DNA from: Nymphaea colorata | Taxonomy: Eukaryota; Streptophyta; Magnoliopsida; Nymphaeales; Nymphaeaceae | Direction: 5' to 3' | Length of the DNA stretch: 64,000 nt | Assembly: GCF_008831285.2 (NCBI RefSeq) | Contig: NC_045146.1 | Coordinates: forward strand, 4,722,972-4,786,971 | Shown here: one piece after another, positions 9,651-37,011 of the stretch | How the letters are laid out: every line of letters starts with the position of its first letter | How positions within the stretch are numbered: position 1 is the first letter of the stretch | The notes under the pieces: model-generated | The model's database searches: none | Told to the model about the DNA's origin: nothing | What the model saw: the letters and a program-made list of their open reading frames with translations, nothing else | Translations under genes and position numbers: made by a program

Positions 9651-10558
9651 TTACTCGGTTATGTCAAAACAAAGTTTAGCTTCATCCCAAGGACCATTTA
9701 TCTCAAATTTGTATTCCTGTATCCTGATAAGCCAGTAAGGACATACAACAGTAATGAACAATAATAGGGCTAGAAATAGAGCAAACAAGGAATGGTGAAG
9801 GGGAAAAAGAATGGCCAAAGTTGCACAGGTCAAGAGGAGAGAAAAACACAAGTGCACTTTGGTGGAGTACTTGATGCAGTACATCACTAGTGGAGAAAAA
9901 AAAAAAAGATCTGTAAAGAAAAAAGCATGATGGAGAACACATGATACCTTGAAGGAAGGCGGGAAGCAATAAGAACAGACGCCACAATGGACGCATTCAG
10001 GGAGATATTGCTGGTTAGTGTTGGATTCTTCAAGGCCCCAGGTGGTCTGATGGTTGAGCCAGAATAATCATGCAGAAAGAGATGAATAACAAGCAGGAAA
10101 ACTGTTAGTGCCCAAATGGAGTCTGAACTGATGGATCTTGTGAGGGTGCAATAAAGTGGGGCTAGTACATACAAGCCACTAATGAAGTAAGCAATGTTAA
10201 GGAGGTAATGAAGAAGAAGGGAAATAGAAAGTTTCGTTTCCGTTAAGACAAGCACCAGGAAGCCCATCCCAAGGAGAACAGCATTAACCAGGTGGAGTGC
10301 CCTTCCATCTATTCTGGCCAGCAATGTGTATGTCCAGACACAGACCACGAGAACTACAACACAAAGATACTGAGAGATGGAAACTGAGTCCAGCATCACT
10401 TTAAGCAAGTCTCTCTTTACAACATTGGCATTCATAACCATATCTTCAAGAAAGGATTCGTCTGTATAATAGTCCGCATACCCAGGTTGCATGCCACCAT
10501 ATGCCACTTTCTTCCATTCAGCTCGAGCTTGTGTATTCAAAGTTTTGTTCTCCATCAA
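9651..10558 (-). CDS. PIGC: PIG-C, GPI-N-acetylglucosaminyltransferase subunit C (frameshifted)
   Basis: PIG-C is a multi-span ER membrane subunit of the complex that transfers GlcNAc from UDP-GlcNAc to phosphatidylinositol, the first step of GPI-anchor synthesis. The N-terminal part (10558 down to about 9890) has the plant family signatures [74 protein letters not shown] and [17 protein letters not shown]. The C-terminal part (9887-9651) reads [20 protein letters not shown] then [12 protein letters not shown] and stops. Together they give about 302 residues, the usual length, in one exon. The two parts are in different frames, split at a run of 12 T on the coding strand (complement 9896-9907). 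Ten T would restore the expected five residues between SLQ and PLV. Either the gene is broken or the run is miscalled. MMENK at 10558 is the only sensible start. Confidence 0.9.
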
Positions 10559-11418: not shown

Positions 11419-11583
11419 TAATAACCCTTCAGGTTTCTATTATATTCCTTTTGCAGATAACAGATATCCAGAAACAACGCTCTTAACTTAAGAAAAAATT
11501 TCAAAAGATGGATTTACAAGTCAGCAAAACATGCACTCCATTCTTATAAATTAAGCAAAACAAGAAGGCATGGTAGATAGTTC

Positions 11584-11660
11584 AAGTCAGACAATGCTTT
11601 CCAGGCAGATGCACTTCCATCAAAACAGTTCTCAGAGCCCAGTGCATTTCATCATTCGAC
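11584..11660 (-). ncRNA. Box C/D snoRNA A1
   Basis: On the minus strand: box C ATGATGA, D' CTGA after TGCACTGGGCT, C' TTGATGG, D CTGA after AAAGCATTGT. The spacing suits a 77-nt C/D snoRNA. I cannot name the target. Confidence 0.65.
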
Positions 11661-11728
11661 CATCCCAAGCTCCATATTTGTGAAAAAGTCAAAACAACTT
11701 GTTTTCCAAGGGACACAATATGCAGTTG

Positions 11729-11732
<4 letters not shown>

Positions 11733-11766
<34 letters not shown>
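11733..11766. repeat. (TA)n microsatellite
   Basis: About 34 bp of alternating TA. The matching tract in copy 2 (about 34969-34988) is shorter. Confidence 0.9.
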
Positions 11767-11770
<4 letters not shown>

Positions 11771-12097
11771 AAGACTAAAAACCTTGACATAGGATGTCGC
11801 ACCACTCAAATAAAGAAGCTACCTTACAATATTTTTTCTGGGAACTTCTCTCAGAAAAAGCATTGACTTAGAAAATCAATTTCCCAAATGACAAGAGTTG
11901 CTGACATTATGGCTTATTTAACGTTAAGCATGGGAGAGGTACAATGACACTTTGGGCAAGGAAAAAAAGGATTGCGTCAACAAAAGTATGCAGATATACA
12001 TGACTTCATAGAACATATTCGCAGTTAAACCAATCTCCATCACATAGAAAGAAGGTCAGCAATCTCGTCTAACAAAGAGAAACGATATAGCTCATAT

Positions 12098-12175
12098 AAG
12101 TCAGACAATGCTTTCTAGGCAAATGCATTTCCATCAACAAAAACTGCTCAGAGCCCAGTGCATTTCATCATCCAA
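12098..12175 (-). ncRNA. Box C/D snoRNA A2
   Basis: Same plan as A1: GATGATGA, TGCACTGGGCT-CTGA, TTGATGG, AAAGCATTGT-CTGA. Both guide segments are unchanged from A1 while the flanking DNA differs. Confidence 0.7.
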
Positions 12176-12349
12176 CCCCATGAGTCATGGTCTCAAGATT
12201 CACAAACAACATAAACACAGAGGCCACACAGGCATAAAGATAGAGTGATAGAGAGAAGAAACTGACAAAGGGTGTAAAGGAACTTTAAAAAAAAAAAAAA
12301 AAAAGGACAAAAACCACATATCTAAAAGCGAAGATTACTTGATCTACTA

Positions 12350-12424
12350 GGTCCTCAGTGAGACTGCTTATAATTTTCAACAATGATAAATCAGGTCTCA
12401 AAGATTACATGCCATCATCGAACC
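12350..12424 (-). ncRNA. Box C/D snoRNA B1 (18S rRNA guide)
   Basis: 75 nt with a GGTTC/GGACC terminal stem, box C-like ATGATGG, guide TAATCTTTGAGAC directly before D' CTGA, a C'-like TTGTTGA and D CTGA. The 13-nt guide exactly complements GTCTCAAAGATTA near the 5' end of plant 18S rRNA. By the D+5 rule it points at C38 (Arabidopsis numbering). Confidence 0.8.
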
Positions 12425-12660
12425 TTAAAATAATTGTGAAACGAAAAGAAGGAATAAAAGTATAAAACACAAATAAAATTAAGAAAAAGATAAGAGAGGT
12501 AGTTCATGATAGAAAAATATTTTCAGTTGAATGTCGCCATCATCGAACCTTAAAATAATTGTGAACGAAAAGAAGCAATAAAAGTATAAAACACAAATAA
12601 AATTAAGAAAAAGATAAGAGAGGTAGTTCATGATAGAAAAATATTTTCAGTTGAATGTCG
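12411..12660. repeat. 125-bp direct tandem duplication
   Basis: The block starting at GCCATCATCGAACC (12411) repeats from 12536 with few changes. It begins inside B1, so a second copy of that unit's 5' stem and box C lies alone at 12536-12549. Confidence 0.85.
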
Positions 12661-12799
12661 CAGTACGTTATTCACTATACCTTTGGCAAAGAAGGCAGAG
12701 TGACTCAACAAATACCTGCCATTGGATATCAGCCCTTTCACCCAAAGCATGGGATGGATTACTCTAAAACCATCAAAATGTGGCACAAGAGACCCATTA
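12653..12799 (-). ncRNA. Candidate box H/ACA snoRNA C1
   Basis: 147 nt ending ACATTC (ACA three bases from the end). The 3' hairpin can pair GCAG with CTGC and TCACT with AGTGA. They flank a pocket, and the upper stem sits about 13-14 nt before ACA, as H/ACA pseudouridylation pockets require. The 5' half is less well defined. Confidence 0.5.
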
Positions 12800-13042
12800 A
12801 AGAGCTTATAAAAGAGAGAGAGAGAGAGACAGAGGGCACCAGCCAAAAAACCAACAAAAAATAGCCCAAAGGCCAGTGCATCAACTCAACCCCAAAGTCC
12901 ATAGCTATTGACAACATAATAAGCAAATGAGGAATTGAAAAGAATGAAGCCAATGTACACAAGATTCACCTGATGGACATTAACATAGCTTAAAAATCTT
13001 CCAACCATATATCTTTTAGGAGATAAGTGCCAGTTCTAATTT

Positions 13043-13116
13043 GTCCTCAGAAAAATGCTTGGGATGTTCATAAAATGAAAATCAGGCCACAAAGATTACT
13101 TGCCATCAGCAGACCC
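13043..13116 (-). ncRNA. Diverged box C/D unit B2
   Basis: It keeps TGATGG, D' CTGA and D CTGA, but the guide reads TAATCTTTGTGGC with mismatches to 18S rRNA, and the terminal stem is weak. It is probably a decayed or re-targeted copy. Confidence 0.5.
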
Positions 13117-13169
13117 TCAACACCCTCCAACCACCCAAAAAAACACACATTATCAAGAATTTTCTTTTG

Positions 13170-13230
13170 CATTGTATGCAGTAACTTATTCACTATACCC
13201 ATGACAAACAAAGCAGAGTGACTCCACAAT
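13170..13230 (-). ncRNA. Truncated candidate H/ACA unit C2
   Basis: Only the 3' hairpin region of the C unit is present (AGTGACTC, then GGGTATAGTGAATAAG and CATACAATG). The 5' half is gone. Confidence 0.35.
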
Positions 13231-13433
13231 ATCCAACATCTAGAACTGAGATTGGTAACCTGAAAAGCTAAACCACCAGAAAATGGTGGAACAGGTCACC
13301 GAATAGCTTAGAGAGAGAGAGAGATCAAGGGACCAACCGGTGGATAGGTACACCAATGGCTACAACACTCTACTAGCCACTGCCAATTACCGGTTAGACA
13401 GAGACAGGGAGATGGAGCAGGGTTAGCTCCTAT

Positions 13434-13511
13434 AAGTCAGACAATGCTTTCAGGGCAAATGCATTTCCATCAACAAAAAAATGCTCAGAGCCCAGTGCAT
13501 TTCATCATCCA
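13434..13511 (-). ncRNA. Box C/D snoRNA A3
   Basis: GATGATGA, TGCACTGGGCT-CTGA, TTGATGG and AAAGCATTGT-CTGA are all intact. Confidence 0.7.
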
Positions 13512-13710
13512 ACACCACAACAAACTAGATGCATTCACAATTAAAAAAAACACACACACACAGAGGACACATTGAGAGGACACATTGACAGACGTGCAGG
13601 CATGTAGATTCAGTGATAGAAAGAGAAGGCATGGAAAAGATGTTAACAAGTTTAAAAAAAATGAAAACAGTTCCATAAAAGTGAAGTCATGAAGATTATG
13701 TGGTTTACTC

Positions 13711-13784
13711 GGTCCTCAACGAGACTGCTTATAATTTTCATCAATGATAATCAGGTCTCAAAGATTAGATGCCATCATCGAACC
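13711..13784 (-). ncRNA. Box C/D snoRNA B3 (18S rRNA guide)
   Basis: GGTTC/GGACC stem, ATGATGG, guide TAATCTTTGAGAC plus CTGA, and a good C' TTGATGA. The final D box is TTGA instead of CTGA, which may weaken it. Confidence 0.7.
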
Positions 13785-13911
13785 TTGAAATAACTGTTAA
13801 GCGAAAGAAAGTATAAGGCCAACATAAAATTAAGCAAAGGAAAAGAGAGAGAGAGAGAGAGAGGGTTTTCAAAGACTTTGCTGGAAAAGAGAATGTTATG
13901 ATTATTCTGTT

Positions 13912-14056
13912 GAATGTTGCAGCACGTTATTCACTATACCTTTGACAAACAAGGCAGAATGACTCAACAAATACCTGCCAATGGATCCCAGCCCTTGCAC
14001 CCAAAGTTCAAGATGGGTTACTCGAAACCATCATAATGTGGCACAAGAGACCCATC
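13912..14056 (-). ncRNA. Candidate box H/ACA snoRNA C3
   Basis: It ends GCAACATTC and has the same 3' hairpin as C1. The 5' half has a perfect inner helix (CTTGAAC with GTTCAAG in the plus-strand relative; one change here) enclosed by GGGTCTC/GGGATCC-type pairing. Confidence 0.5.
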
Positions 14057-14377
14057 GATTGTCTTATAAAAAAGAGAGAGAAGGATAGAGGGCCACCAGC
14101 CAAAAAACAAACAAAAAGTTACCCACAGCTCAATGGATCAACTTGACCCTAAACTCTTCTTAGTTCTCTCTAGCTCTACCAGTTCTCGAACCTTGGCCCA
14201 ATCACTATACCATCATCAGGTTGTACCACAAGGCCAGGTAAGAAACATAACAAGTGAAGGAGGAACTCAAAACAAATGAAGCCTATTTACACAGGATCCT
14301 GAAGGGCACTAAAAGAGCTTAAAAGTTAAAAATCTTTGAAACATACATCTTGGAGGAAAGAAGTGCTGATTTTAATT

Positions 14378-14451
14378 GGTCCTCAGAATGATTGCTTGTA
14401 ATATTCATCTAGAGAAAATCAGGTCTCAAAGATTATTAGCCATCATCGGAC
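14378..14451 (-). ncRNA. Box C/D snoRNA B4 (18S rRNA guide)
   Basis: GTCC/GGAC stem, GATGATGG, guide TAATCTTTGAGAC before CTGA, and final CTGA. The second guide (CAAGCAATCATT) differs from that of B1 and B3. Confidence 0.75.
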
Positions 14452-14485
14452 ACTCAACACCCTCAGACCCCAAAAATATACACAC

Positions 14486-14600
14486 ATGATAAACAACGTA
14501 GAGTGACCCAATGAAATCCTGCATTTGTATCTATTCCCTTATAAGGGATATTGACATTAAAAACCACCAAAAAATGTGGAAGAAACCATTAAAGAGCTTT
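14486..14600 (-). ncRNA. Candidate H/ACA unit C4, 3' end lost
   Basis: It has an H-box-like ATACAA and the 3' hairpin stem, but the ACA end is replaced by a CA-rich stretch. Its relative at 37.6 kb keeps the tail. Confidence 0.35.
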
Positions 14601-14698
14601 TAAAAAGAGGGTGCCTCTGGTACATCCACCGGACACCACCAATTGCTAGTAAGAGAAAAGGGGGGGAGAGACAGAGAGAGGATTGGGCTAGTTTCTGT

Positions 14699-14774
14699 AA
14701 GTCAGACAATGCTTTCTAGGCAAACACATTTCCATCAACAAAAACTGTTCAGCGCCCAGTGCATTTCATCATCC
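14699..14774 (-). ncRNA. Box C/D snoRNA A4
   Basis: GATGATGA, TGCACTGGGCG-CTGA (one change next to the box), TTGATGG and AAAGCATTGT-CTGA. Confidence 0.65.
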
Positions 14775-14937
14775 AACCCCATGACAAACTCAATGGCTGC
14801 AGAATTCACACACAAAGGCCACATGGGCAGACGTGATAGAGAAAGGGTATAAACAAAGGATATTATTAACGACTTTTCCAGAAAACAACTAAAACAAAAA
14901 CTACATAGCAAAAAGCAAAGGTTACTTGATTCAGTCA

Positions 14938-15008
14938 CTTGTCAGTGACAGCTTATAATTCTCACCAATGATAAATCAGGCCTCAAAGATTACATTCCAT
15001 CATCGAAC
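14938..15008 (-). ncRNA. Box C/D unit B5, diverged 3' half
   Basis: GGTTCGATGATGG and a guide with one change (TAATCTTTGAGGC) precede CTGA. The 3' end has CTGA but no matching terminal stem. Confidence 0.5.
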
Positions 15009-15143
15009 CTTAAAATAATTGTGAAACAAAAAGAAAGTATAAGGCCAAAAAATTAACAAAAATAAATGAGAGTGTGTGTATGTGTGTCTTCACAAGGCTT
15101 GGCTGGAAAATAGTAGCTCATGACAGAAAATACTTCTTCTGCT

Positions 15144-15290
15144 GAATGTCATAGTACGTTGTTCACTATATCTTTAACAAACAAGGCAGAGCAACTCAAT
15201 ATATACCTGCCATTGGACCTTGGACCTTGCACCCAAAGGTGGAGATGAGTTACCCAAAGACCATCATAATGTGTCATGAGAGACCCATCA
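15144..15290 (-). ncRNA. Candidate box H/ACA snoRNA C5
   Basis: 147 nt ending GACATTC. It has the same hairpin plan as C1, with the 3' stem CAGGTAT...GTACTATG weakened. Confidence 0.45.
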
Positions 15291-15521
15291 AAGGGTTCAT
15301 AAGAGAGACCGGGAACAAAACAAAAAAAAAAAAAAAGACCAAAGCCCAATCAACTCCACCCCAAACTGAACAGCTATCAAGAAGACAAGAACACAACAAG
15401 CAAAAGAAGAATTCAAAACAAATGAAGCCAATGTACAATAAGATATGCTTGAAGGGAGTTGAAAGAAATTAGAAATCTTCCAAGTGATACATCTTGGTGG
15501 AGAGAACGACTAATTCTAATT

Positions 15522-15595
15522 GGTCCTCACAAAGATTGCTGTAATTTTCATTAACAGAAAATCAGGTCTCAAAGATTACTTGCCATCATTGGACC
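15522..15595 (-). ncRNA. Box C/D snoRNA B6 (18S rRNA guide)
   Basis: GGTCC/GGACC perfect stem, ATGATGG and guide TAATCTTTGAGAC plus CTGA. The final D box is GTGA here, but CTGA in the inverted copy at 59.3 kb. Confidence 0.7.
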
Positions 15596-15661
15596 CTCAA
15601 CACCATCCAACCACCCCAAAAAACATAACTACATACATTTGGAAGATTTCTCTTTTGCGTT

Positions 15662-15800
15662 GAATTTAGCAACACATTATTCATTATGCCCATGGTAAAC
15701 AAAGGACTCAACAAAATCCTGCATTTGTATCTAAGCCCTTATGAGAGATATTTAGATGGATAACTCTAAAACCATCAGAAATTGGTGTAAGAGACCATTC
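15662..15800 (-). ncRNA. Candidate H/ACA unit C6 (ACA changed)
   Basis: C-type unit with H-box-like ATACAA. The terminal box reads AAA instead of ACA in all three cluster copies, so function is doubtful. Confidence 0.35.
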
Positions 15801-15879
15801 AAGAGCTTCTTAAGAGAGAGAGACTGCCAGAACGATAAATACATCTGACAACTCTGACTACCAGCTGCCACGAAGATAT

Positions 15880-15948
<69 letters not shown>

Positions 15949-15949
15949 A
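15880..15949. repeat. (TA)n-(GA)n compound microsatellite
   Basis: A TA tract runs straight into a GA tract. It is also present, at different lengths, at about 44335-44395 and 58976-59022. Confidence 0.9.
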
Positions 15950-16199
15950 AGAGACAAAATTCTCCTGTTGCAAAGGGAAAATTTTAAGGGGCTTTTGTTG
16001 GTGCCCCAAAGTTAGATCAAGATGATAACACCTGTTGAAAATAGAATAAAACAAAAATTCCAAGTTTCATTTTTCCAGAACAGCATGCACAAATTGAGCC
16101 AAATCAGTAGAAAATAAGCCAACACATGAAAAAAACGAAATAAACAAGATGTCAAGCATGAATACATTAGGAAGAAACAAAAAAACGAAAGATTTGTAA

Positions 16200-16410
16200 A
16201 CTCACGTTGTTGTCGCCGATTCACAAGTTCATAAAATCAATTATGCTGTCACCGATTCGATGCTCACGGTAAGTCGCCAGAGGATGAAGGAGGGAGGGCA
16301 GCCGGAAAAATCAGATTCTCGCCTCAGGAGTCGTCGGAAGTCAGTTAAGGAGGTCGAGGGAGGTGCGCGGGGCTCCAAGCTCACACGTGAATGGGTTAAA
16401 CCCTAAACCG
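16200..16410 (-). promoter_or_regulatory. Telo-box and leader of snoRNA cluster, copy 1
   Basis: A telo-box, AAACCCTAAA (16398-16407), is followed on the minus strand by about 190 bp conserved in all three copies. That stretch contains CTCTGGCGACTTACCGTGAG and ends at a GTGAGTTT splice-donor-like site (about 16203). Telo-boxes are common upstream of plant ribosome-biogenesis and snoRNA genes. Promoter status is inferred. Confidence 0.5.
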
Positions 16411-16430
16411 CCTGCACTTCTGATCGATGG

Positions 16431-17563: not shown

Positions 17564-18681
17564 TCATACACTTAGGACCCGCACTAGGATTAAGAAGGGG
17601 TTAGGCGAGACTAGTGAGGTTAGGACGAAACTCTTAAAAATTCTTGGGTCCAACGTCCCAACAAATGAGAACATGGGAAATTCAGAACCTAGAGCGTTAG
17701 CAGTGAGAGGTGAGGGTGGAATAGCAATGGCTCTAGGATAGGTTTTCGAGCAAGGAAGGCCGGACATGGAGAAACCAGGGGCTAGGAAACTAAATTCCTA
17801 GGATTTGGTCCAGTATAGGCCTAAGTTTAGTTCTTGAGTCGAGTCCAAAACCCAAGTCCTTAGAGTCGGGTTTGCGCGAGTCTAGGGAGGTCATCTAGTC
17901 GAGTTGAGCCTAGCTCGAGGAGGCAAGATGGGTGTGCTAAACAAGTGGTTTCCATCTTGAGCTCACATGGCTCAAGAGGAGTTTTTATTCTTGAGTTACA
18001 CTTAGTGTTTGGTTTTCTCTATTCGATTTGATGACATATTCATTCATTCGCATAATTCCATTCATTACTTACCAAGTCGGGTTGTGACTTGGGATTATAT
18101 CGTTTTTATTATGTTTATGCATTTCATTTTGAGTTTTGGGGCTGGATTCGTGTTTGGAATCCAGATTTGAATACACTTGTATAAATTGAATTGGATCAAG
18201 GGACTGAGTATGCAATTTTGGGAATTTGAGATCATTTGATTTTTGCCTTTCTCTCTCCTCACGTTTCTCCTCTCTTCACGTCAATCCCTCTCTCCCTTGT
18301 CTCTCTTCTCTCCTCAACTCTCCTAAGACCAGCGTGCTGGCCTCTCTCCCCCCTCTTGTCTCCCTCTCCTCTCTTCTTATTCCATCATCTCTCTCGTCAT
18401 CCCCTCCTAGTCACATTTATCTCCAACGTTGAAGAAGAAGGAGCGGTGATTCCTCTAGGCGAGCCACGGCCCTATGGGGATTTTCAACACTTCGACTTCA
18501 CCTCGGATCTGCACGCCTTGGGTGCAATTCCTCTGCCATATCAGAGGAGTTAGAGGCTCTAGATGCGCAAAGGAGGCTGCGGTTTCATCCCTAGTAGCGC
18601 AGCAACCCATCGTGAATCAAGAAAGAAAGGTTAGTTCGTTCCCGCTTTGGAATTGTCTAAGTAACGTGTTGGCTTAGTTTA
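17564..18681 (+). mobile_element. Gypsy left LTR, first part
   Basis: It aligns with 30624 onward. The first bases are TCATAC instead of TGATAC, and a 6-bp deletion follows. The LTR is interrupted at 18682 by the nested copia element and resumes at 23517. Total LTR length without the insert is about 3.08 kb. Confidence 0.9.
18677..18681. repeat. Copia-A target-site duplication GTTTA (left)
   Basis: Matches GTTTA at 23517-23521. The uninterrupted site is seen in the right gypsy LTR at about 31756-31765. Confidence 0.95.
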
Positions 18682-19005
18682 TGTTGGAATGTTGAGGGAG
18701 AAAAGAAGAAAGAAATTTAACGTGGTTCGGCCACTGGCCTACATCCACGAGAGAAGAAACTCTCACTCACTATTTTATTCTTTCATCAAATACATAAGCC
18801 TTATATAAGATATAAGGTATGGCCCTAACGTGTAAAGATAAACACGCTAACAGCTAATTTCCAGGATTGGATGACTCATCCATAACAGGGCAAGAAAAAC
18901 GAGGAAGGAAAGTTAGATAAGGGAAATCAAGATAAGGCAAGATCGCCTTCAACAACTTGCTATAATTTTGGTAGACGTTGGTGAAGATATCCTTTCCTTT
19001 CAACA
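18682..19005 (-). mobile_element. Copia-A 3' LTR
   Basis: 324 bp, TGTTGG...CAACA. By eye it differs from the 5' LTR at two positions. A purine tract (TTGAGGGGGAG on the minus strand) adjoins it at 19006-19016. A TATATAAGG box lies near 18801. Confidence 0.95.
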
Positions 19006-22000
19006 CTCCCCCTCAAGTGGGGCGTAAAGAATCCAGCAGCCCCACTTGATTTTGATTTCATTAAACTGCTTGATCGTGAGTCCCTTGGTAAGACCATCAG
19101 CCAATTGATTGCAGCTCTTGACATAGGGGGTACATATATCTTTCTTTTGCACTTTTTCCCTTACATAATGGCAATCAATTTCCAAATGCTTTGTTCTTTC
19201 ATGAAATACCGAATTTGCAGCAATGTGAATGGCAGCTTGATTGTCACAAAACATAGGAATAGGGTAATCAACCTTGAAGCCAAGTTCTTGAATGAAATTC
19301 TTTACCCAAATGAGTTCGCTAGCAGCAGTGGCCATAGATCTGTATTCAGCTTTTGCGCTTGACCTTGAAACAGTGTTTTGTTTCTTACTTTTCCATGAAA
19401 CTAAACTGCCTCCAAGAAATACACAATAGCCTGTCATAGATTTTTTGTCCACTCCTCCTGCCCAGTCTGCGTCAGAATAGCCATTGATGTCAATGCTTCC
19501 ATTTATTTTATACCACAATCCCTGACCGGCAGTTTTCTTTAGATATCTCAAAACTCGATCCACCATTTTAACGTGTCCGGGTTTCAGAGCATGCATATGT
19601 TGACTGATCAAACTTACAGCATATGTAATATCAGGTCTGGTCACTGTAAGATAAATAAGTTTTCCGACCAATCTTTGATACCTACTTACATCCTCAATGA
19701 CTTCACTTTCAAGATCTTCTAGCTTGCAGTAAGGATCAATAGGAGTGTCAATAGGCTTGGACTCGAGTTTTCCAGTCTCCTTGAGCAGATCGAGGATATA
19801 CTTGCGTTGAGACAGATAAATACCTTTCTTTGATCTAGAGATTTCAATGCCCAAGAAGTATTTAAGTCTTTCCAAATCTTTGATCTCAAAGGCTTTGTGA
19901 AGAAATTTTTTCGTTTTGAGCATGATATCTAAATCATTTCCAGTGATGATGATGTCATCAACATATATGAGAACAATTACCACACTTTCTCCAGTTCTCC
20001 TGACGAAGACAAAATTGTCTGTATGGCAGCGGGTAAAATGTTTAATTTCAAGAGCTTCACTCAATTTTTGATGCCATGCTCTGGGTGACTGTTTCAGCCC
20101 ATAGATAGATTTTCTCAGTCGACAGACCAACCGAAAATTGTTTCTTTGAGGATGACCCGGAGGGAGTTGCATGAACACTTCTTCCCTTAGATCGCCTTGT
20201 AGGAAGGCATTTTTGACGTCGAGCTGAAATAAAGGCCAACCAAAGTTACAAGCCAAAGAAAGTAAAATTCGTATGGTATTCATTTTCGCTACTGGTGCGA
20301 AAGTTTCCTCATAGTCTAGCCCTTGAGTCTGTGTGTATCCCTTAGCGACTAGCCTGGCCTTGTGTCTCTCTATGGAACCATCACTGTCGTATTTGGTTTT
20401 GTATATCCACTTACAACCAACAACTCTCTTGTTCTCAGGTAAAATTGTAATATCCCAAGTGTGATTTTTCAGTAGAGCATTCAGTTCTTCATTCATCGCT
20501 TCAACCCAAATAGATTGTTGTTTTGCTTCTTGATAAGAGCTGGGGTCATGGTGGCTAGCGATAGAGCTTAAGAACGCAGCATGTCTCTTGGAAAGATGTT
20601 GGTAATGAAGATACTTATTCATAGGGTACTCACTTGCAGCAACCATTACATAATCATCAAGATACTTGGGGCGTTGTGTTGTTCTTCCAGATCTTCTAAA
20701 CATGCTTTCTTCTTGATCTTGACTTAGTTCAGGTTGTGAGATGTCTTCCTCAAGGTGTTCAATAGGTTGAAGCTGCTGATCATCTGAATGACGAGTAGAA
20801 ATCACAACATCAAATTCCTTGTAGTCATCTATACAAGGTTGAACGAGGTTGTGTGAAGCTTCCTCCCCCTGCCCAACATAACCAATAGGGTGAAAGAAGG
20901 GAGTTTGTTCATGAAACACCACATCACGAGAAATGGTCAGATGACTATTATTAACATCATAGCACTTGTACCCCTTTTTTGATGATGAGTAACCTAGAAA
21001 AACACACTTAGTTGCTCTAGGACTTAATTTGTCACCCTCCAAATTTTTTACTTATATTGTGCACCCAAAGACACGCATGTGAGAGATGTTTAATTTTCTT
21101 TGCACTAACACTTCAAGAGGTGCCTTACCATGTAGCCCCTTTGAGGGAGAGCGATTTATAATATAACACGCCGTAAGTACAACATCACTCCAAAAACGCT
21201 TTGGCATATTCATTTGAAACAGGAGAGATCTTGTTACCTCTAGAATGTGTCTGTTTTTCCGTTCGGAGACACCATTTTGCTGGGGCGTTTTAACACAAGA
21301 ATACTGATGAATAATACCATGTTCCTTCTCAAAGATATCAAACTGGTGATTTTTAAATTATGTCCCATTGTCAGACCGAAAAACTTTAACATGTGCTCCA
21401 AACTGGGCTTCAATCATCTTGTAGAATTCCTTGAACTTGGAAAACACCCCATCTTTGGATTTTAATAAATAAATCCAAGTGAAACGGGAAAAATCATCAA
21501 TGAATAACACATAATATTTGAAATTGGAATAAGAATCCACAGGCGCAGGGCCCCACACATCAGAGTGAATTAACTCAAAAGGAATACTAGACTTGCTTTC
21601 AGAGTGAGAAAAAGGTAATCTTGTCATTTTTGCCAGTTTGCATATCTCACAAAGATCGGAATCAAATTGCAGACTAGGAAATAAAATTTTTAAAGGTCTA
21701 CTCGAAATATGTCCGAGGCGTTGGTGCCACATTGAGCCATCATCTTGCACCTTTGCCGAGAGAGCTTGCATTTTATCTTCTAAAATGTAGAGGCCACGGT
21801 CCATGTGACCTTCACCAATCTTCTTCTTCGTCACTATGTCCTGGAGTATCACATTAGAAGGTGAAAAAATGACTTCACAATTCAGGTCTCTAGTGATTTT
21901 GGAGACAGATAGTAAATTAGAGGACAGATCAGGTATGTATAGGACCTTGGAAGGGTCAGAGGAATCAAAGAACCGTAAATTTCCAATACTTTCAACATTT

Positions 22001-23136
22001 ATGTGTGCCCCATTGGCTATAGTAACAGTAGTGCACTTTTGTGGAGGAGCAATATCATGTAAAACAGAGCTATTCATGGTCATATGTTCGCTGGCCCCTG
22101 AATCGACAATCCACCGGTTAGGGAGGAGCATACCTTTGTTTTCTGCTGCAGAGTTTAACTGGGCTGAAGCAGCAACAGCAGATTGAGTTCCTTTGACACT
22201 TTGAAGCAGTTCATTGATTTTTCCTAGAATTATAGGAAGATCCAGAGTGTCTGGTTTTTCATTTGTTGTGGCGACTTTGGCACTTGGCGTAGTGTCCTTA
22301 TGTTTGTCACCCCACTTTCTGTCATTAGGTCTCCCATAAATATCCCAGCAACGGTCACAAGTGTGACCATCCTTTTTGCAGTAAGTACAAAATCGTTTGG
22401 TTCTGGTTCTGCCTTTAAGATCTTGAGTACTGAAGTTGTTTGCGATGAAGGTAGTCCTTTCGTTTTGTTCTGCTTCACTAGTTCCAGTCGAGGAATTCAT
22501 CACAAGTTTTCTAGATTCATCACTTAAGAGAAGAGAACATACCGTAGATAGGGGCAAAGGAATAGGAGACATAAGAATCTGCTTCCTTGTCGATTCATAC
22601 TCGGGTCCGAGACTGGCCAGAAGTTCAAATATTTTTTGCTGTTCACGGATCTTTTCTTTTGAGCTCAATCTTTCAGACATGGCCATAAGATAGTCCAACT
22701 CGTCCCATTTTCCCTGTAGTTCCCCCAAATGCTCGCTAAGAGATTGATTCTCCTTTTTTGTGTTGCGGATGCTTTGGGACAGGTGGAACATGCGAGGAAG
22801 TTGGTTTTTTTCGCCATATAGATCCTTGGCCTTCTTCCACATTTGAGACGCAGTTTCAGCAAAATAGAATCCTTGCACAATCTTGGGCTCCATGGAATTG
22901 AGGAGCCAAGACATGACAAGATGATTATTGGATCTCCATTCCTTGTAGGATGGGTCGTTCTCGTTGGGCTTGGGAAGATCATCGTTGACTTAGTCCAGCT
23001 TCGATTTGCCACTGAAGTAGAACATAGCCGACTTGGACCAAGCCAAGTAATTTGAGCCATTTAGCAAAACAGAGGTGATTCTGTTGCCCGGATTTGAGTG
23101 TTCCTGAACCACAATTTTCTCCATCATCTGGGCCAT
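19000..23136 (-). pseudogene. Copia-A gag-pol polyprotein with three nonsense codons
   Basis: A single frame of 1379 codons starts at MAQMMEK and encodes, in order: a gag domain (SYKEWRSNNHLVMSWLLNSM); a CCHC knuckle (CTYCKKDGHTCDRC); protease (WIVDSGASEHM); a pre-integrase zinc finger (MWHQRLGH...CEICKLAK); integrase (DVWGP, FIDDFSRFTW, FRSDNG); reverse transcriptase (QLDVKNAFLQGDL, YGLKQSPRAW, YVDDIIIT); and RNase H (GYSDADWAG, SSAKAEYRS, DNQAAIHIA). Three TAA codons break it, at 22990-22992 (gag), 21358-21360 and 21052-21054 (integrase). There is no frameshift. Its stop codon uses the first six bases of the 3' LTR (TGTTGA). The element is probably mobilisable only in trans. Confidence 0.95.
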
Positions 23137-23180
23137 GGAGAAATGCCTGACAGCCAGGGAGAAGAAGAAACACACCTAAT

Positions 23181-23192
23181 GCTCTGATACCA
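23181..23192 (-). other. Copia-A primer-binding site
   Basis: TGGTATCAGAGC on the minus strand, immediately next to the 5' LTR. It would pair with initiator Met-tRNA for minus-strand priming. Confidence 0.9.
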
Positions 23193-23516
23193 TGTTGGAA
23201 TGTTGAGGGAGAAAAGAAGAAAGAAATTTAACGTGGTTCGGCCACTGGCCTACATCCACGAGAGAAGAAACTCTCACTCACTATTTTATTCTTTCATCAA
23301 ATACATAAGCCTTATATAAGATATCAGGTATGGCCCTAACGTGTAAAGATAAACACGCTAACAGCTAATTTCCAGGATTGGATGACTCATCCATAACAGG
23401 GCAAGAAAAACGAGGCAGGAAAGTTAGATAAGGGAAATCAAGATAAGGCAAGATCGCCTTCAACAACTTGCTATAATTTTGGTAGACGTTGGTGAAGATA
23501 TCCTTTCCTTTCAACA
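23193..23516 (-). mobile_element. Copia-A 5' LTR
   Basis: 324 bp, paired with 18682-19005. The near-identity means recent insertion, after the gypsy element was already in place. Confidence 0.95.
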
Positions 23517-25478
23517 GTTTAGTTTTGGATTTCTCGAGGGAGGGGTTGGAACTCTTGAGTCACAGCCAAGATTCCATCATCTTCCTTGTGTGGAAGTCAC
23601 TTCTAAAATAGGTTTTACAAGTCTTAGAAGGATTCCAAAGGAGACGCGCTTGCCAACGTTGAAAGAAAGTTCAAATTTGGTCTGGTCAATCTTCTTCAAA
23701 GAAAAACACAGAAACTTGCTGGAGTTTTCACTGAAAAATCAGTGTTTCATCAATACGTTCCACGGTGAAATACCATCAAAGCCAACAAAGAAGCATAGGA
23801 GAAAAATCAGCGCGAGAAAAGAAGAAGAACGCTGGTCGTTTCGCGTAGAACGGCCAAGGCGTTTGCAAAATACAAGTCACCGAAAAATTCTGGTTTTCCG
23901 GCCACTTCTGCCATTTTTCCGGCTACATTTGGGTCTATTCCGACCACTACTCTCAAAGGTCAGACGTGTCCTCCGTTACAAGAAAAGGAGCTGAACATTT
24001 GGTGGGTAATTTTGTCAAAGAAAAAGAAGGAGGTGCACATGACGTGAAAAGAGAGAGATTCTAGGAGTGATCTACGGCCCTCCTACATTTTTGCCAAAAA
24101 GTGGTATGAGATCTATACCCCTTCCTTTCAATTAGTTCTCAACCATTCATCTTGATCACGAGGGGATTCACTTCACACGGGAACCAGTTCTTAGCCCTTA
24201 ATAATCTCCTACATTTGCTCTAATTGATCCCAAGAAAGCCACCTAGTGTTGCGCCAACTTTTGATCCACATTTGGTGGAGATTGCTCAGAAAATTCAGGA
24301 ACTATCAATCTTTCCTAACCCATAGATCCGTGCCATGTCCTATTCTTGAGCCTCACATGATTTAGGAACCACTCTTTTAGCTATTTCCCAGGCCATTAGT
24401 CAGTTTTTCCATCATTTGAGTCCCACGTCTCTAGTGTAAGCCCCTAGCTTCTCTCTATCTCATCGTTGGATGACCCAACCTGTCCTAAATCACCCAACCC
24501 CATATTCCTTGCATCTAATCATCTAAGCCTAACCATACCTCACGCCCTTGTCCTAAGCTCACGTGTTTCCAAACCTCACACACATAGAACTTAAACCCTC
24601 TTAACCCGTAGAAGCTGTCCAAGCCCACGCCTCTCCCCCAACTGTCCTTAACCAGCCACACATAGGGGAATACCATAGCTCGATGACCGAGCTCACATCT
24701 CTTGACCGTAGCTAGGGTCATTCCCCAGCTCTAGACCGAGCTGACCTTGACCAGTTCCAGCAACATCAAATCTTTTTGGCGTGCATCCTTGGGCTTCTTC
24801 ACTTGTCGCCCAAGTGGATTGAGGTCTACACCACATTAGGCCTCCTTCGTGCGCTGCCACGCACTCAGCCAGGGGGGCTGAGCTAGGAGGCATCCCTTTG
24901 CCTCACTTGGAGCCGAGGACCCCTTCGGAAGCGGCTGAACCTTCCCTTGTTCCAGCTTGGTCTTCAGCATTGTTCGTGTGAAGGAAGGAGACGCTTGCAA
25001 TTGAACCAACGTCGCCCTTGGCGTTGACATCGTCTTCCTTTGAGATGCTCCCATGGCAGCCGTCTTATTGATGTGACCATGGGCTAGCATTCTTCTAGAG
25101 CCACAGCATCCCTTTCATCTTCTGCACACATCAGAAAAGTGGTAGAATTCTGAAGTCTGAACGGCGAAGCGCAAGATCGCCTTGGAGAGGTACCGATTTT
25201 TCTATAAATCGGATTTGCTTAAGTTTGAATATTCTTATTTGCTTTCGTTAGATTTTCCAGATTTCTTGTAGTTTCCTAGAGGTCTTGTGCCTAAGATCCG
25301 GCTACAAGAGATCATTTGTGAGTGAGTCTAGTTTGCTTTACATCAATAATATTGGAGTCATTTTGCTTAGCATCACTTTGATTCTTCCTAGTGTCGTAAG
25401 TTCCCTCTACGAGGATCTTGGGGAGTAGGATTGACTCTAGGACTGGGCTGTCGCCTAAGCCGGAGTAAGATCCTACCA
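23517..25478 (+). mobile_element. Gypsy left LTR, second part
   Basis: It continues the LTR after the nested copia and ends AGATCCTACCA, matching 31756-33717. A CTATAAATCGG element at about 25201-25211 is a candidate TATA box, about 275 bp before the LTR end. Confidence 0.9.
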
Positions 25479-25481
25479 ATT

Positions 25482-25494
25482 TGGTATCAGAGCC
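25482..25494 (+). other. Gypsy primer-binding site
   Basis: TGGTATCAGAGCC three bases after the left LTR; initiator Met-tRNA type. Confidence 0.9.
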
Positions 25495-25875
25495 AACGTG
25501 GAGGTCTCCTATGCTTGCTTTCGTCGTTTGAAAACATATCATAGGGTCTAAGTTGTTAGATCTCTGAAATTTTCAGTTTTTGGGATAATCGGGTAGCTAG
25601 AGTAGTCGCTTGTTAGAGTTAGAATTTGCATGAGTTAAATTTCTGTTTTGCTTCAGTTTGAAGTATCTAGAATTAGATTTTAAGCTTGCTTTACATTTCT
25701 GTAATTTTCCAGAGCCTAGCATAATTAGGATTTCTTGTTTGTTGATTGATTGGTTTAGTCGAGTTGGGCATAACTTTGCTTATTGAAGCGTTCATTAGTG
25801 ACTAGTCCAACTAGGTGATAGTTTGCCTTGATTTTCTTGCATCAAGTGAATTTTGGGATTACAACCTACGTCCCA

Positions 25876-28800
25876 ATGACAAGGAAGGGCAAGCAACCCG
25901 CAGCCCAAGAGGTGGTCGAGCTAGAAGAAAGTGGCTCAAGTCATGAAGAGAAGTCCGTTCTAGAAACGGAGACCCACACTATTGGGCGCATGATTCAATT
26001 CGAAAGGGAGATGTATCAAATGCGCCAAGAGATGGGCGAATACAAGGCTAAATTGAACAAATTGGATGAGATCGATGAACTCAAGAACATGATCAAGTCC
26101 ATCTCTCTTAACCTTGCATCCAATCAACGTGGATCGCAAGAGTCATCCCAAGAAGCCAGTAAAGGGAAGGGACTCCTAGCCGGAACCCCCAAGGTGGAAT
26201 CTAGTGTACGTCCTCAATTCAGGGGAATGCCAGTCATGGATCCTAGATCCTATGAGGCCCAAGCTAGTAGGGTAGAGCCTGAAGAAGGGGAGCAACAACC
26301 TGCTCCCAGGGGATTCCCACAGGGATCATATTGAGGCCAACCACACTTTCAAGATGTGGCCCCTCGAACTAGAATGATCGATGAGGAATGGGAAGAATTC
26401 AGGGAGTTCCGCGAAAGGAGGAATCGTCAACCCGCGGTTCCTAGAGTGTCTTCAGTGAGGATAGAGTTTCCGAGATTCAATGGGAAAGAGGCTCAGGATT
26501 GGATCTTCCAAGTCGAGGAGTACTTCGCTTGTCAACTAATTCCAGAACCTGAGTGGATCCAGACGGCATCTCTACACTTTGAAGGAGAAGCGCGAAGATG
26601 GTGGAGATGGCAGAAGCATAACCAGCCCGTGTACGAGTGGGAACACTTCAAGGAAGTTCTGCAATACCGGTTTGGAGAGTCTATGTACATAGACTACGAC
26701 ATTGAATTGAAGAATCTGAAGCAGACTTCTACAATTCAAGATTATCAGGGCGAATTTGAGAACTTAGCTAGTATGGTGTCTTGGACTCCAAAGTCCCTCA
26801 TTGCAGCCTTCATAGGTGGGTTAAAAGAAGAGATCCAAATCAGTATGAGGACTGAGAGGTACACTAGCTTAGGTGAGTGCTTTGCTAGGGCTAGGACCAT
26901 CGAAGAGAAGAAGAAGAAGAAGAAGAAACTAGCTCTTAGGAGGATCACCAGATATCCTGAACCTGCTAGACCTCGTCCAATCCCACCTAGGACCCCTCAA
27001 CAACAACCACCTTACAGAAGGGAAGAGACCAAACCCTTCAACCGTGATCATCTCCTGACTACATTCATCAGCAGAAAAGACCGTGAGGAGATGATTGCTA
27101 AGGGATTGTGCTTTTACTGCAAGGGAAAGTACGAGAGAGGACATAAGTGCAAGCAACTTCAACTTTTTGAAGTCAATGAGGATAGCTCAGATGAGGAAGA
27201 GGTACAACCAGAGGAGCATGAGGATCCATCCCCACAGGAACAAAGTGAAGACACAGAGGCAACAACCAATCTAGATAGTGTTTGTCATCTTCTAGCAAAC
27301 CCAGATAAGCCTAATGCGATGAGAGTGTTAGGTAGGATAGGGAATAGGAGAGTCTTAGTTTTATTGGATTCAGGAGCCACACACAACTTTGTGAGTGATC
27401 AAGTGGCACAGGAAATCGAGTGTGAGAAGGAGATCCAACCTCCTCTCAAGGTCTTAGTAGCGAATGGGGCTAGTTTATCTTGCAACAGCAAGTGTAAGAA
27501 TGTGGAACTTTTACTGCAGAGTCTCCCCTTCCAAGTAGATTTGTTAGTTGTTCCTTTAGGTAGCGTTGATGTAGTCTTAGGAGTTCAGTGGTTAGAAACA
27601 TTGGGCGACATATCCTGGAACTTCGCTCACATGCTTATGAGCTTTCTTAAGGAGGGTGGTGAAGACAAGATCACCCTCAAGGCTGTCAATTCTACAATTG
27701 AACCTAAAGCAGCCATCAGAGCCCTGACTGTGCAACAACCCGCAATATAGCTAGTGTCAGTAGCCAAGGATATCACGCCCCAGGAGATAGAAGAAGAGAT
27801 AGTTCCACCTCAAGTTCAGCTCGTGCTCGAAGGCTATGAGGACATATTCGAAGAGCCTAAAGGACTACCACCCCAGAGGTCTTATGACCATCGAATTGTC
27901 CTTACAAATGGAACGGAACCAGTCAACGTGAGGCCTTACAGGTATGGTTACACTCAGAAGGCCGAGATTGAGAAATTGGTAAAAGAAATGAAGGAATCAG
28001 GTATTATACGTTCCAGTTCGAGTCCTTTCTCTTCACCTGTACTACTCGTGAAGAAGAAAGACAACACTTGGAGGTTCTGTGTAGACTACGGAGCCTTAAA
28101 CGAAGCGACTGTGAAGGACAGACATCCTATCCCAGTCATAGATGAGCTGCTGGATGAGTTGATAGGAGCTACAGTATTTTCAAAGCTGGATCTTAGAGCG
28201 GGTTATCACCAGATTAGGATGGCGGAAGATGACATCTCCAAGATGGCATTTCGGATGCATGATGGACATTACGAGTTTTTAGTTATGTCGTTTGGATTGA
28301 CCAATGCACCTGCAACCTTCCAAAGGTGCATGAATGACATTTTTAGGCAGTATCTTTAGAGTTTTGTTTTAGTTTTCTTCGATGATATCTTAGTTTATAG
28401 CAAGACTGTTCTAGATCATGTAGAGCACCTTAGGATAGTCTTACAGGTTCTCAAGAAGCACACCTTGTTCGCAAATAGGTCGAAGTGCAGTTTTGGCCAG
28501 GCATCGATAGGCTATTTGGGGCATATCATGTTAGAAGATGGTGTGAGGGTGGATCTGGAGAAACTAATGGCGATGGAGCAGTGGCCTCAACCAAAAGACC
28601 CTCGAGGATTATGCGGATTTTTAGGGTTAACTGGTTATTATCGGAGGTTTATACAAGGATATGGCCTCATAGCTTCCCCACTCACACACATGTTGAAGAA
28701 AGGGGAGTTTAAACGGTCAGACAAGGCCAAGGAAGCCTTTGTAAAGCTTAAGGCCGCCATGATGAGCGCACCAGTCCTTACTTTACAAGACTTCTCCAAA

Positions 28801-30807
28801 GAATTTGTGGTGGAGACTGACGCCAGCGACATTGGCGTTGGTGCCGTACTGAGTCAGGAGGGACATCCTATAGCGTTCATGTCAAAAGCTCTAACGAGCA
28901 GAGCCAAACCGCTATCAACCTATGAGAAGGAGCTTTTGGCGATAGTCCTCGCAGTAGAAAAATGGAGACCCTACCTGATAGGAAGGAGATTCATCGTGAG
29001 GACTGATCATAGCAGCTTGAGGTACATGGTGAAGCAGCGTATCTCAACCCCAACACAGCAAAGATGGTTAGCCAAGTTGTTGGGATGCGACTTCACGATC
29101 GAGTATAAGAAATGAGTGAAAAATTCAGCTGCTGATTCGTTATCCAGGATGCCTGAGCATATTATGACCTTATCAGTGCTCGAGTCAGACATTTGGGGTC
29201 GAATTGTAGCGGAGCAGGACTCTGATGAAGAACTGAGCTCATTAAAGACCTCTCTCACACAGAACCCAGGGTCTATTCCTAGGTTTTCGTTGCTAAGCGA
29301 CAAGTTATGTCGCAAAGGAAGAATCGTGGTGCCCAAGGAGTCGACATTAAAACGAGAACTTTTAAAGCACTTTCACGACTCCCCAAAAGCAGGCCATGAG
29401 GGAGTTGTGAAGACTCTTGGGCACATTAAAGTTCAATTTTGGTGGGAAGGGATGAAGGCAGATGTGAGACAATATGTAAAATCATGCAACATCTGTCAAA
29501 GGGAGAAGTACGAGGCGATGAAGCCTCCTGGGTTACTGAACCCCCTTCCAATTCCTGACAGACCATGGCATGATATATCGATGGATTTTATAGATGCAAT
29601 GCCGAAAGCTGAAGGGAAGGAAGCAGTAATGGTGGTGGTGGATAGATTAACGAAGTATAGCCACTTTGTTCCCTTGCCAAAGCACTACCAAGGGCCACTG
29701 GTAGCCACTATGTTCCAGGACTACATCGGAAAGCTCCATGGGATGCCTCGATCAATTGTCTGTGATCGAGATTCAATCTTCATGAGCACCTTTTGGAAAG
29801 AGTATATGAGGATGGCAGGAACAAAGATCAACTCCAGTACAGCACACCATCCGCAAACAAATGGCCAAAGCGAGGTGGTCAACCGAACCTTAGAGACGTA
29901 TCTAAGGTGTTATGCAGGGGAGAGACCCAACACTTGGGTCAGATATTTATCATGGGCTGAGTGGTCCTACAACACCAGCCTACACTCTGGGACTGGCATG
30001 ACACCTTATGAAGCACTTTACGGGTGTCCACCTCCAGGAATTCCTTGCTATGAGGGCAACACAGCTAATGATGGCGAAGTGGACTGCAGTTTGTGCAACA
30101 GAGATGAAGTGCTGTCAGAATTGAAGCGTAATATCAAGAGAGCACAAGAGAGAATGAAGAAGGCGCATGACAAGGGCAGAAAAGACAGAGAATTTGAGGT
30201 GGAAGAATTAGTTTGGTTGAAGAGGTTGCCTATGAGGCAGAGGTCCTTACTGGGTCAACCATATTCGACGCTTCTACCAAGGTATTATTGCCCTTTTCGT
30301 GTGCTACAAAGGATGGGAAAGGCTGCGTATCGCTTGGCGTTACCACCAACTGCCAAGGTTCACCCAGTCTTCCACGTTTCAAGACTGAAGCCGCATCATG
30401 GACCAGCGCCAGAACAAGAATAACCTCTACCTGATTCGTCACCAAGACCTGTAAGAATTTTGAATCACAGGTGGGTCACTAGAGAGGGTAGTACTCGCCA
30501 TGAAGTACTGGTTGAATGGGAAGGAAATGAGAGTGGCACTTCATGGGAAACATATGATCAGATCGTCTCTCAGTTTCCAGGAATACGAGCTTGGGGGCAA
30601 GCTCGATCTACGGAGGGTGGACTTGATACGAGCCCACTTAGGACCCGCACTAGGACTAAGCAGGGGTTAGGAGAGACTAGTGAGGTTAGGACGGAACTCT
30701 TAGAAATTCTTGGGTCCAACGTCCCAACAAATGAGAACATGGGAAATTTAGAACCTAGAGCGTTAGCAGTGAGAGGTGAGGGTGGAATAGCAACGGCTCT
30801 AGGATAG
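25876..30807 (+). pseudogene. Chromovirus-like Ty3/gypsy polyprotein with five nonsense codons
   Basis: One frame of 1644 codons. Gag begins MTRKGKQPAAQ and has a coiled-coil-like charged N-terminus, a capsid core (FPRFNGKEAQDWIFQVEEYF), a lysine run, and a zinc knuckle (CFYCKGKYERGHKC). Protease is LLDSGATHNFVSD. RT has [33 protein letters not shown] and FFDDILVYS. RNase H has ETDASDIGVGAVLSQ and STYEKELLAIV. Integrase has an HHCC finger (HEGVVKTLGH...CNICQ), the catalytic DIS..DF, CDRDSIF and GQSEVVNRTLE. A chromodomain-like tail (EVLVEWEGNESGTSWETYDQ) follows. Stops lie at 26332 (TGA), 27748 (TAG), 28357 (TAG), 29113 (TGA) and 30421 (TAA). There is no frameshift. The frame runs 184 nt into the 3' LTR. 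It suggests a chromovirus; I cannot fix the clade. Confidence 0.95.
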
Positions 30808-34247: not shown

Positions 34248-34265
34248 GTATTGTTGGTTTTCCCT

Positions 34266-34405
34266 TATTCACTATACCTTTGGCAAAGAAGGCAGAGTGA
34301 CTCAACAAATACCTAATACCTGCTGCCATTGGATATCAGCCCTTTCACCCAAAGCATGGGATGGGTTACTCTAAAACCATCAAAATGTGGCACAAGAGAC
34401 CCATT
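34266..34405 (-). ncRNA. Candidate H/ACA unit C1 (patch copy, 3' end missing)
   Basis: It matches C1 but starts at TTATTCACTATACC, so the ACA tail is lost. Confidence 0.3.
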
Positions 34406-34649
34406 AAAGAGCTTATAAAAAAGAGAGAGAGAGAGACAGAGGGCACCAGCCAAAAAACCAACAAAAAATAGCCCAAAGGCCAGTGCATCAACTCAACCCC
34501 AAAGTCCATAGCTATTGACAACATAATAAGCAAATGAGGAATTGAAAAGAATGAAGCCAATGTACACAAGATTCACCTGATGGACATTAACATAGCTTAA
34601 AAATCTTCCAACCATATATCTTTTAGGAGATAAGTGCCAGTTCTAATTT

Positions 34650-34723
34650 GTCCTCAGAAAAATGCTTGGGATGTTCATAAAATGAAAATCAGGCCACAAA
34701 GATTACTTGCCATCAGCAGACCC
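34650..34723 (-). ncRNA. Diverged box C/D unit B2 (patch copy)
   Basis: Same altered guide (TAATCTTTGTGGC) as 13043-13116. Confidence 0.45.
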
Positions 34724-34821
34724 TCAACACCCTCCAACCACCCAAAAAAACACACATTATCAAGAATTTTCTTTTGCATTGTATGCAGTAACTTATTCAC
34801 TATACCCATGGTAGATAGTTC

Positions 34822-34898
34822 AAGTCAGACAATGCTTTCCAGGCAGATGCACTTCCATCAAAACAGTTCTCAGAGCCCAGTGCATTTCATCATTCGAC
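34822..34898 (-). ncRNA. Box C/D snoRNA A1, copy 2
   Basis: Boxes and guides are identical to 11584-11660. Confidence 0.65.
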
Positions 34899-35319: not shown

Positions 35320-35397
35320 AAGTCAGACAATGCTTTCTAGGCAAATGCATTTCCATCAACAAAAACTGCTCAGAGCCCAGTGCATTTCATCATCCAA
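35320..35397 (-). ncRNA. Box C/D snoRNA A2, copy 2
   Basis: Boxes and guides as at 12098-12175. Confidence 0.7.
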
Positions 35398-35563
35398 CCC
35401 CATGAGTCATGGTCTCAAGATTCACAAACAACATAAACACAGAGGCCACACAGGCATAAAGATAGAGTGATAGAGAGAAGAAACTGACAAAGGGTGTAAA
35501 GGAACTTAAAAAAAAAAAGGACAAAAACCACATATCTAAAAGCGAAGATTACTTGATCTACTA

Positions 35564-37009: not shown

Positions 37010-37011
<2 letters not shown>

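Follow-up and report, generated by a model that had tools for sequence, protein, structure and literature searches.

We analyzed a stretch of 64,000 nt from Nymphaea colorata (NC_045146.1:4,722,972-4,786,971; hereafter the window), which carries a repetitive array of small nucleolar RNA (snoRNA) units next to a copy of the GPI2 (PIG-C) gene. Judged by its sequence, the locus is very probably a plant polycistronic snoRNA gene, the array of which would be made as one precursor and cut to snoRNAs for position C38 of 18S and position C2198 of 25S ribosomal RNA (rRNA). It is a known kind of locus; its amplification is unusual and its neighbor gene unexpected.

Organization of the array

We located the units of this array (array 1) using nhmmer with window-derived profiles, Rfam covariance models, repeat finding and alignments. 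The original prediction had placed sixteen units, two box C/D types (A and B) and one H/ACA-like type (C), within positions 11569-16430. The nhmmer profiles recovered all 16 on the minus strand, from 15822 to 11584, in the predicted 5' to 3' order (C-B-C-B-A)x3-A, and the proposed span proved good, including a telo box near its 5' end. Both box C/D types were identified by Rfam models: A as snoR118 (RF01424), with 4 of the 4 copies in array 1 and 9 in the window reaching the gathering score, and B as snoR66 (RF00202), with 5 of the 6 copies in array 1 doing so. The sixth B, the even copy of module 1, scored 35.5 bits (E 1.1e-4), below gathering. Failure of such models on all units, named beforehand as an outcome that would count against the prediction, did not occur. 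Array 1 thus packs several snoRNAs into a few kb of one strand, as is typical of plant polycistronic loci.

Each of the three modules comprises, in the direction of the minus strand, C1, an odd B, C2, an even B and A. Module 1 consists of C1 (15660-15822), odd B (15523-15593; RF00202, 56.1 bits), C2 (15143-15312, with ACA at its end), the snoR66-like even B just mentioned (14938-15007) and A (14699-14776; RF01424, 68.9 bits). In module 2 these are found at 14485-14613, 14379-14450 (55.3 bits), 13910-14080, 13712-13782 (57.9 bits) and 13434-13512 (66.5 bits), and in module 3 at 13177-13322, 13043-13113 (46.8 bits, with a changed D' guide), 12651-12822, 12351-12422 (62.4 bits) and 12098-12175 (73.7 bits). 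The extra A follows at 11584-11659 (60.2 bits). All three C1 units are decayed, and the C2 units of modules 2 and 3 are of types that fold (see below). Upstream of module 1 lies a leader (15823-16397) with a G+C-rich start followed by AT and AG microsatellites, and the telo box AAACCCTA (as on the plus strand; 16398-16405, minus strand), a putative promoter element, marks the 5' end. The A units are spaced 514, 1336 and 1265 nt apart by repeat finding, which agrees with a block of ~1.3 kb; unit order and A spacing together support the proposal that the array grew as five units at a time were duplicated in tandem. Arrays 1 and 2 also contain a tandem doubling of 124 bases, the start of a B included (12411-12661 and 35625-35875), which the program TRF did not list in array 3.

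Guides and predicted targets

The Arabidopsis assignments are 18S C38 for SnoR66 and 25S C2198 for SnoR118, and neither snoRNA bears the mark for multiple gene variants in the table concerned (PMC8053127, Table 1). The canonical B guide of N. colorata pairs at 13 of 14 bases with the 5' end of the 18S of its own genome and places C38 at D'+5. It scores 13 there, and none of 10 shuffles of the same 18S locus scored above 11. The guide core of A, GCACTGGGC, is kept in 27 of 28 copies.

Target scans used two non-plant contigs (L013, in which 3000 of 8000 bases are N, and L014) together with a fragment of the own 18S. A 28-base string from the 18S 5' end has 19 exact matches in the genome. At four 18S-like loci (L051-L054; 5500 of the 8000 bases of L054 are N) homology stops within ~500 bases, and neither an 18S 3' end nor a 25S motif was present; the 5.8S matches inspected likewise had no adjacent 18S or 25S motif. 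Fourteen contigs filed as bacterial or archaeal (L001-L014) carry an exact 27-base eukaryotic 18S match, apparently as contamination; five of the contigs were aligned further.

Related arrays in the genome

The original prediction covered array 1 alone and was in this respect incomplete, since the triplication is old and common to nine places and two further arrays of the window had been overlooked. We searched the genome assembly (408 Mb, 783 contigs) and found nine related arrays: three in the window, and six on one other contig (contig C2 of the assembly, a label unrelated to unit C2), near 9.58, 23.13, 23.23, 23.255, 23.266 and 33.96 Mb. Three probes returned 37 snoR66, 27 snoR118 and 33 C matches, all within these same nine places; the numbers are lower bounds and copies elsewhere are possible, as 60 of 147047 and 64 of 15178 first-look Rfam candidates were scored (32 of 32 for the C probe). 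The Rfam cut-off was exceeded by 34 of the 37 snoR66 and 25 of the 27 snoR118 matches. With fragments counted, the profiles yielded 28 A, 41 B and 45 C over the nine arrays, or 114 matches, of which 9 A, 16 B and 18 C lie in the window; among the latter, one B is clearly truncated and one C is no more than a short fragment.

Array 2 is on the minus strand and in two parts. Rfam models and profiles place its main part at 34261-38482, with the order C-B-A, C-B-C-B-A, C-B-C-B-A-A followed by a tail of C (fragment)-B-C. Its 5' part, comprising a telo box, leader and first C1 (44110-44863; profiles and homology), is split off by a Copia-type long terminal repeat (LTR) element (38576-43953), the terminal repeats of which are 96.8% alike and which is flanked by the 5-base direct repeat AGAAG. 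We considered this insertion as the reason for the absence of the first B of array 2 and rejected it: the lost stretch lies beside the element, and the element has its own 5-base repeat, as judged by eye. Array 3 is inverted, on the plus strand (57908-61227; Rfam models and profiles), and reads telo box, leader, C-B-C-B(truncated)-A-C-B-C-B. Arrays 1 and 2 are separated by a Gypsy-type element (17569-33717) with repeats of ~3 kb, in the left one of which a further Copia-type element is nested (~18681-23516).

A telo box precedes 6 of the 9 arrays, and homologous leaders are found at 44.3-44.9 kb and 57.9-59.0 kb of the window. Because all of these telo boxes are copies of one ancestor, they count once. 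Upstream of array 3, positions 55586-56678 share 95% identity with the DNA that immediately precedes, on the 5' side, the intact GPI2 locus at 9.58 Mb, and this stretch is possibly the original promoter region.

Duplication history

In a tree of 38 of the 41 B copies (3 truncated ones were dropped), odd and even B fell on opposite sides of a single branch with support of 100/100. The grouping of B units by block position that had been predicted was thus borne out, and the C-B pair therefore appears to have doubled before the block was copied. When the modules of array 1 are compared in pairs, their spacers show 68-71% identity and 230-300 gap columns, whereas corresponding stretches at different loci are about 89-98% identical, indicating that the triplication is much older than the dispersal. 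We therefore read the five-unit triplication as having preceded the spread to other places, and the window as mainly displaying later segmental duplication of a ready-made array, together with decay.

Arrays 1 and 2 are 98.3% alike over 11569-13227 and 93.7% over 14485-15409, and this unevenness suggests patchy exchange between the copies. The 3' parts of the two arrays are also closer to each other than are the LTRs of the Copia element in array 2, which fits exchange between arrays after its insertion.

The loci at 9.58 and 23.266 Mb, which are short, were considered as a founding, single-module state. We rejected this reading, as their module is of type 3 and 94-98% like module 3 elsewhere. 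Upstream DNA like positions 55586-56678 of the window is joined directly to the type-3 module at these loci. Given the module type and the far larger divergence between modules within array 1, deletion from a longer array is simpler than a founding state and is the best account of the two loci. Array 3 contains a 620-base insertion (58232-58851) that we likewise considered as a mobile element and rejected, since the leader at 33.96 Mb shares two nine-base strings with this stretch, and its absence from arrays 1 and 2 may instead be a loss.

Sequence conservation and decay

We compared units both between the modules of array 1 and between loci. Between modules, A is 91-96% identical with 0-1 gap columns, even B 87-94% with 1-3 gap columns, odd B 75-87%, C2 78-86% with 0-1 gap columns in ~170, and C1 64-80% with 23-46 gap columns. 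Between loci, differences were counted relative to array 1 over matches of at least 89% identity and at least 100 bases, and each class was compared to spacer (309 of 10436 sites differing) by a Fisher test. Both A (12/1064, p 1.8e-4) and the extra A (0/212, p 0.003) were slower than spacer; GPI2 was weakly so (82/3601, p 0.03), and C1 was not clearly slower (48/1432, p 0.41).

These data bear on the rival view that the arrays are mostly dead repeats undergoing decay, with one or two loci expressed. Truncated units, changed guides, the Copia element in array 2, GPI2 frames broken in 4 of 6 copies and the fast-diverging leader are all as that view would have it. However, strict patterns for the C box, the guide core with its D' box and the D box are kept in 22 of 28 A after repeated duplication, and A diverges more slowly than spacer between loci. 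We consider widespread death of the arrays unlikely, and favor a polycistronic gene that supplies functional guides.

Several results nonetheless weigh against a functional polycistronic gene of the kind proposed. All comparisons between loci share array 1, so they are not independent; B (33/1496, p 0.11) and C2 (41/1882, p 0.06) are not clearly slower than spacer in them, and the leader is faster (118/1917, p 9e-11), evidence against the promoter region being strongly constrained throughout. In the stretches inspected at arrays 1-3 and at the 9.58 Mb locus (4 of the 9 arrays), the telo box has neither a Site II nor a TEF box nearby. A telo box is accompanied by one of these elements at 85% of Arabidopsis loci and 51% of independent rice clusters, according to the cited sections of PMC3022908, figures that make the association usual rather than universal. 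As to the target of A, an exact 25S pattern gave 0 matches in the own genome, the context of the C2198 site was absent from all ribosomal DNA (rDNA) loci examined, and the A guide found no match beyond shuffles in the rDNA loci L013, L014 and L053; the A target consequently rests on the Arabidopsis assignment. The strict count for A is incomplete, as given above, and under strict patterns a canonical guide with both boxes is kept in 19 of 41 B. A further 7 have the canonical guide and are one box short, bringing canonical guides to 26 of 41 irrespective of boxes, and 6 have a G-U compatible guide (5 of these with both boxes). Donor-like splice sites, finally, occur both in front of the cluster and between its last A and an acceptor-like stretch before GPI2.

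The remaining 9 of the 41 B, which also count on this side, have a D' guide changed by two substitutions, and all are module-3 odd copies; they comprise all 9 copies of this unit and come from 8 of the 9 arrays. At the same time, no other B position differs so little among the compared loci as module-3 odd B (2 of 340 sites). The changed guide reaches 11.5 at the 18S site of the canonical guide, the base next to the target being mismatched as judged by eye, and scores no better than shuffles in two of three contigs. This unit (13043-13113 and its counterparts) may be inactive or retargeted. The proposal that guides stay conserved while linkers diverge accordingly holds for A and even B, but the guide of module-3 odd B is changed.

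Unit C

None of the six C units of array 1 matched an Rfam family at E<=1. When C was considered as a member of an H/ACA family, with one copy searched at E<=10, we obtained only two microRNA matches far below their cut-offs, and rejected the idea. An ACA, which box H/ACA snoRNAs carry three bases from the 3' end, is present at the putative end of C2 in 16 of 16 aligned copies. Compared to shuffles, representative C2 units had fold z values of -1.7 (5' half) and -3.0 (3' half) in module 2 and of -4.0 and -2.4 in module 3; that of module 1 folded no better than shuffles (-0.3 and -0.7), and the three C1 3' halves ranged from 0.3 to -1.5. The H box consensus ANANNA is not found in the C2 hinge, where the modeled fold reads AUAUCC, AGAUCC or AAGGUCC by eye. 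In pair counts, 89% of cells pair versus 34-46% in slid controls, a high share that is expected because the structure was derived from the same sequences, and there was no covariation beyond shuffles (268 of 500 were as high).

We scanned the putative pocket of C against rRNA, with N excluded and first-order Markov resamples as shuffles. The strongest of 15 guide-by-contig tests, with 13 pairs at an 18S site in L014, was reached by 4 of 60 shuffles; the other 14 tests were matched by 9 to 60 of 60 shuffles, and the same site in L013 differs at one base. An apparent excess in a first scan (12 versus at most 6 in L013, 13 versus at most 11 in L014) was discarded, the L013 control having been spoilt by its 3000 N. 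The 18S site is therefore a weak lead as a C2 target.

Could unit C be spacer carried along with B rather than an RNA gene? The missing Rfam match, H box, covariation and significant rRNA target would all be expected if so, as would the poor folds of C2 in module 1 and the spacer-like evolution of C1. However, C2 is conserved between old modules with at most 1 gap column in ~170, ACA is invariant in its aligned copies, and three of the four half-units of modules 2 and 3 have z values of -2.4 to -4.0 (the fourth being -1.7). We hold the spacer explanation to be a serious minority possibility, and otherwise treat C2 as a candidate RNA. The earlier H/ACA-like label is thus a fair one for C2, on the strength of its ACA end and its folds in modules 2 and 3, albeit with no H box, covariation or convincing target to support it; it does not suit C1, which is decayed and diverges like spacer.

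The GPI2 neighbor

The GPI2 copy of the window (9654-10555, minus strand; Pfam PF06432, 1.2e-55) lies 3' of array 1 on the same strand, and its frame is broken. With all 14 candidates scored, the genome contains 9 GPI2 matches representing six copies, and every one of the six is in or beside an array. Five of them follow an array directly on its 3' side and in its orientation, with 0.7-2.2 kb between GPI2 and the last A; the remaining copy is an inverted fragment within the 33.96 Mb array. The two copies at 9.58 and 23.266 Mb are intact (301 aa). Among the four broken copies, that of the window is disrupted by a frameshift relative to the two intact copies, that near 23.254 Mb by an 86-base insertion and a stop, and that at 33.972 Mb by insertion of one base. 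At the 3' end of array 2, positions 34277-34113 are 88% like the DNA 3' of GPI2 (9374-9208); because DNA resembling the GPI2 flank abuts array 2, this locus probably lost its GPI2.

These relationships raise the alternative that the array is a 5'-UTR (untranslated region) intron of GPI2, from which splicing would free the snoRNAs, and that copies lacking the coding part persist as non-coding loci. The consistent placement of GPI2 3' of the array, on the same strand and within 0.7-2.2 kb, is in line with such hosting, as are an acceptor-like T-rich stretch ending in GGCAG before the GPI2 ATG in 4 of 6 copies and the junction of the cut-off 3' end of array 2 to DNA like that 3' of GPI2. However, at three loci checked, a donor-like site scoring 8.6 is situated between the last A and the acceptor, so GPI2 could own a short first intron, and the donor-like sites common to the telo-box leaders are weak (6.0 to 7.2). 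Under the weights used for donor-like sites, shuffled sequence yields 1.3 sites of at least 7 per kb. In addition, known plant hosts are mostly ribosomal or ribosome-biogenesis genes, at least in the cited sections of PMC4660826. We accord intronic hosting slightly less than an even chance.

Discussion

Taken together, our findings are consistent with the following history and mode of action of the proposed polycistronic gene. A C-B pair would have been duplicated and joined by an A, the resulting block of five units would have been triplicated, and the completed array would then have been copied. Each array would be transcribed as one RNA polymerase II precursor from its telo-box end and the precursor cut into single snoRNAs, of which B would guide fibrillarin to 18S C38 and A would guide it to 25S C2198. 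Having many copies would provide both dose and redundancy, leaving single units and the attached GPI2 frame free to decay. Where GPI2 is present, the array may be an upstream intron of that gene.

Mixed polycistronic plant clusters, duplicated members and intronic clusters have already been described (cited sections of PMC4660826, PMC3022908 and PMC5122169). As in the Arabidopsis and rice clusters of these sources, the units here are on one strand and closely spaced, with a 5' telo box and duplicated members. Unlike those clusters, they form a regular three-fold C-B-C-B-A supermodule present as nine arrays with 114 profile matches in one genome. The covariance-model matches and the D' guides kept in most copies agree with snoR66 (RF00202) and snoR118 (RF01424), whereas the changed D' guide in all 9 module-3 odd B sets these apart from the snoR66 family. 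The position of the array, 5' of a protein gene of like orientation, recalls rice intronic snoRNA clusters, as far as these are described in the sections of PMC3022908 drawn on here; in contrast to those, splicing here is putative and the neighbor, GPI2, is the gene of a GPI-anchor enzyme and not a ribosome gene. A further likeness, limited to the cited part of PMC11405852, is to animal snoRNA host genes with neutrally evolving exons, where RNA units outlast the attached non-guide part; here, however, the organism is a plant, the spread was by segmental copying and hosting is putative. We found no description of the three-fold supermodule, its nine copies, the GPI2 link or C2 in the literature searched, outside which lay most subscription papers, the original plant cluster papers among them.

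A bolder version of this account, which we regard as improbable, is that snoR66 and snoR118 were supplied from an upstream intron of GPI2 together with the undescribed, ACA-ended C2, and that copying of the locus gave rise to non-coding arrays that outlived the protein; C2 would then be a new RNA family, and module-3 odd B possibly retargeted.

The occurrence of one array type in nine places allows selection on guides, spacers, promoter and an attached protein gene to be compared within one genome, and C2 provides a candidate RNA outside every Rfam family. How a protein gene may finish as a non-coding snoRNA gene can likewise be tested at this locus, and hosting by GPI2, if true, would be a plant parallel of the animal snoRNA host genes.

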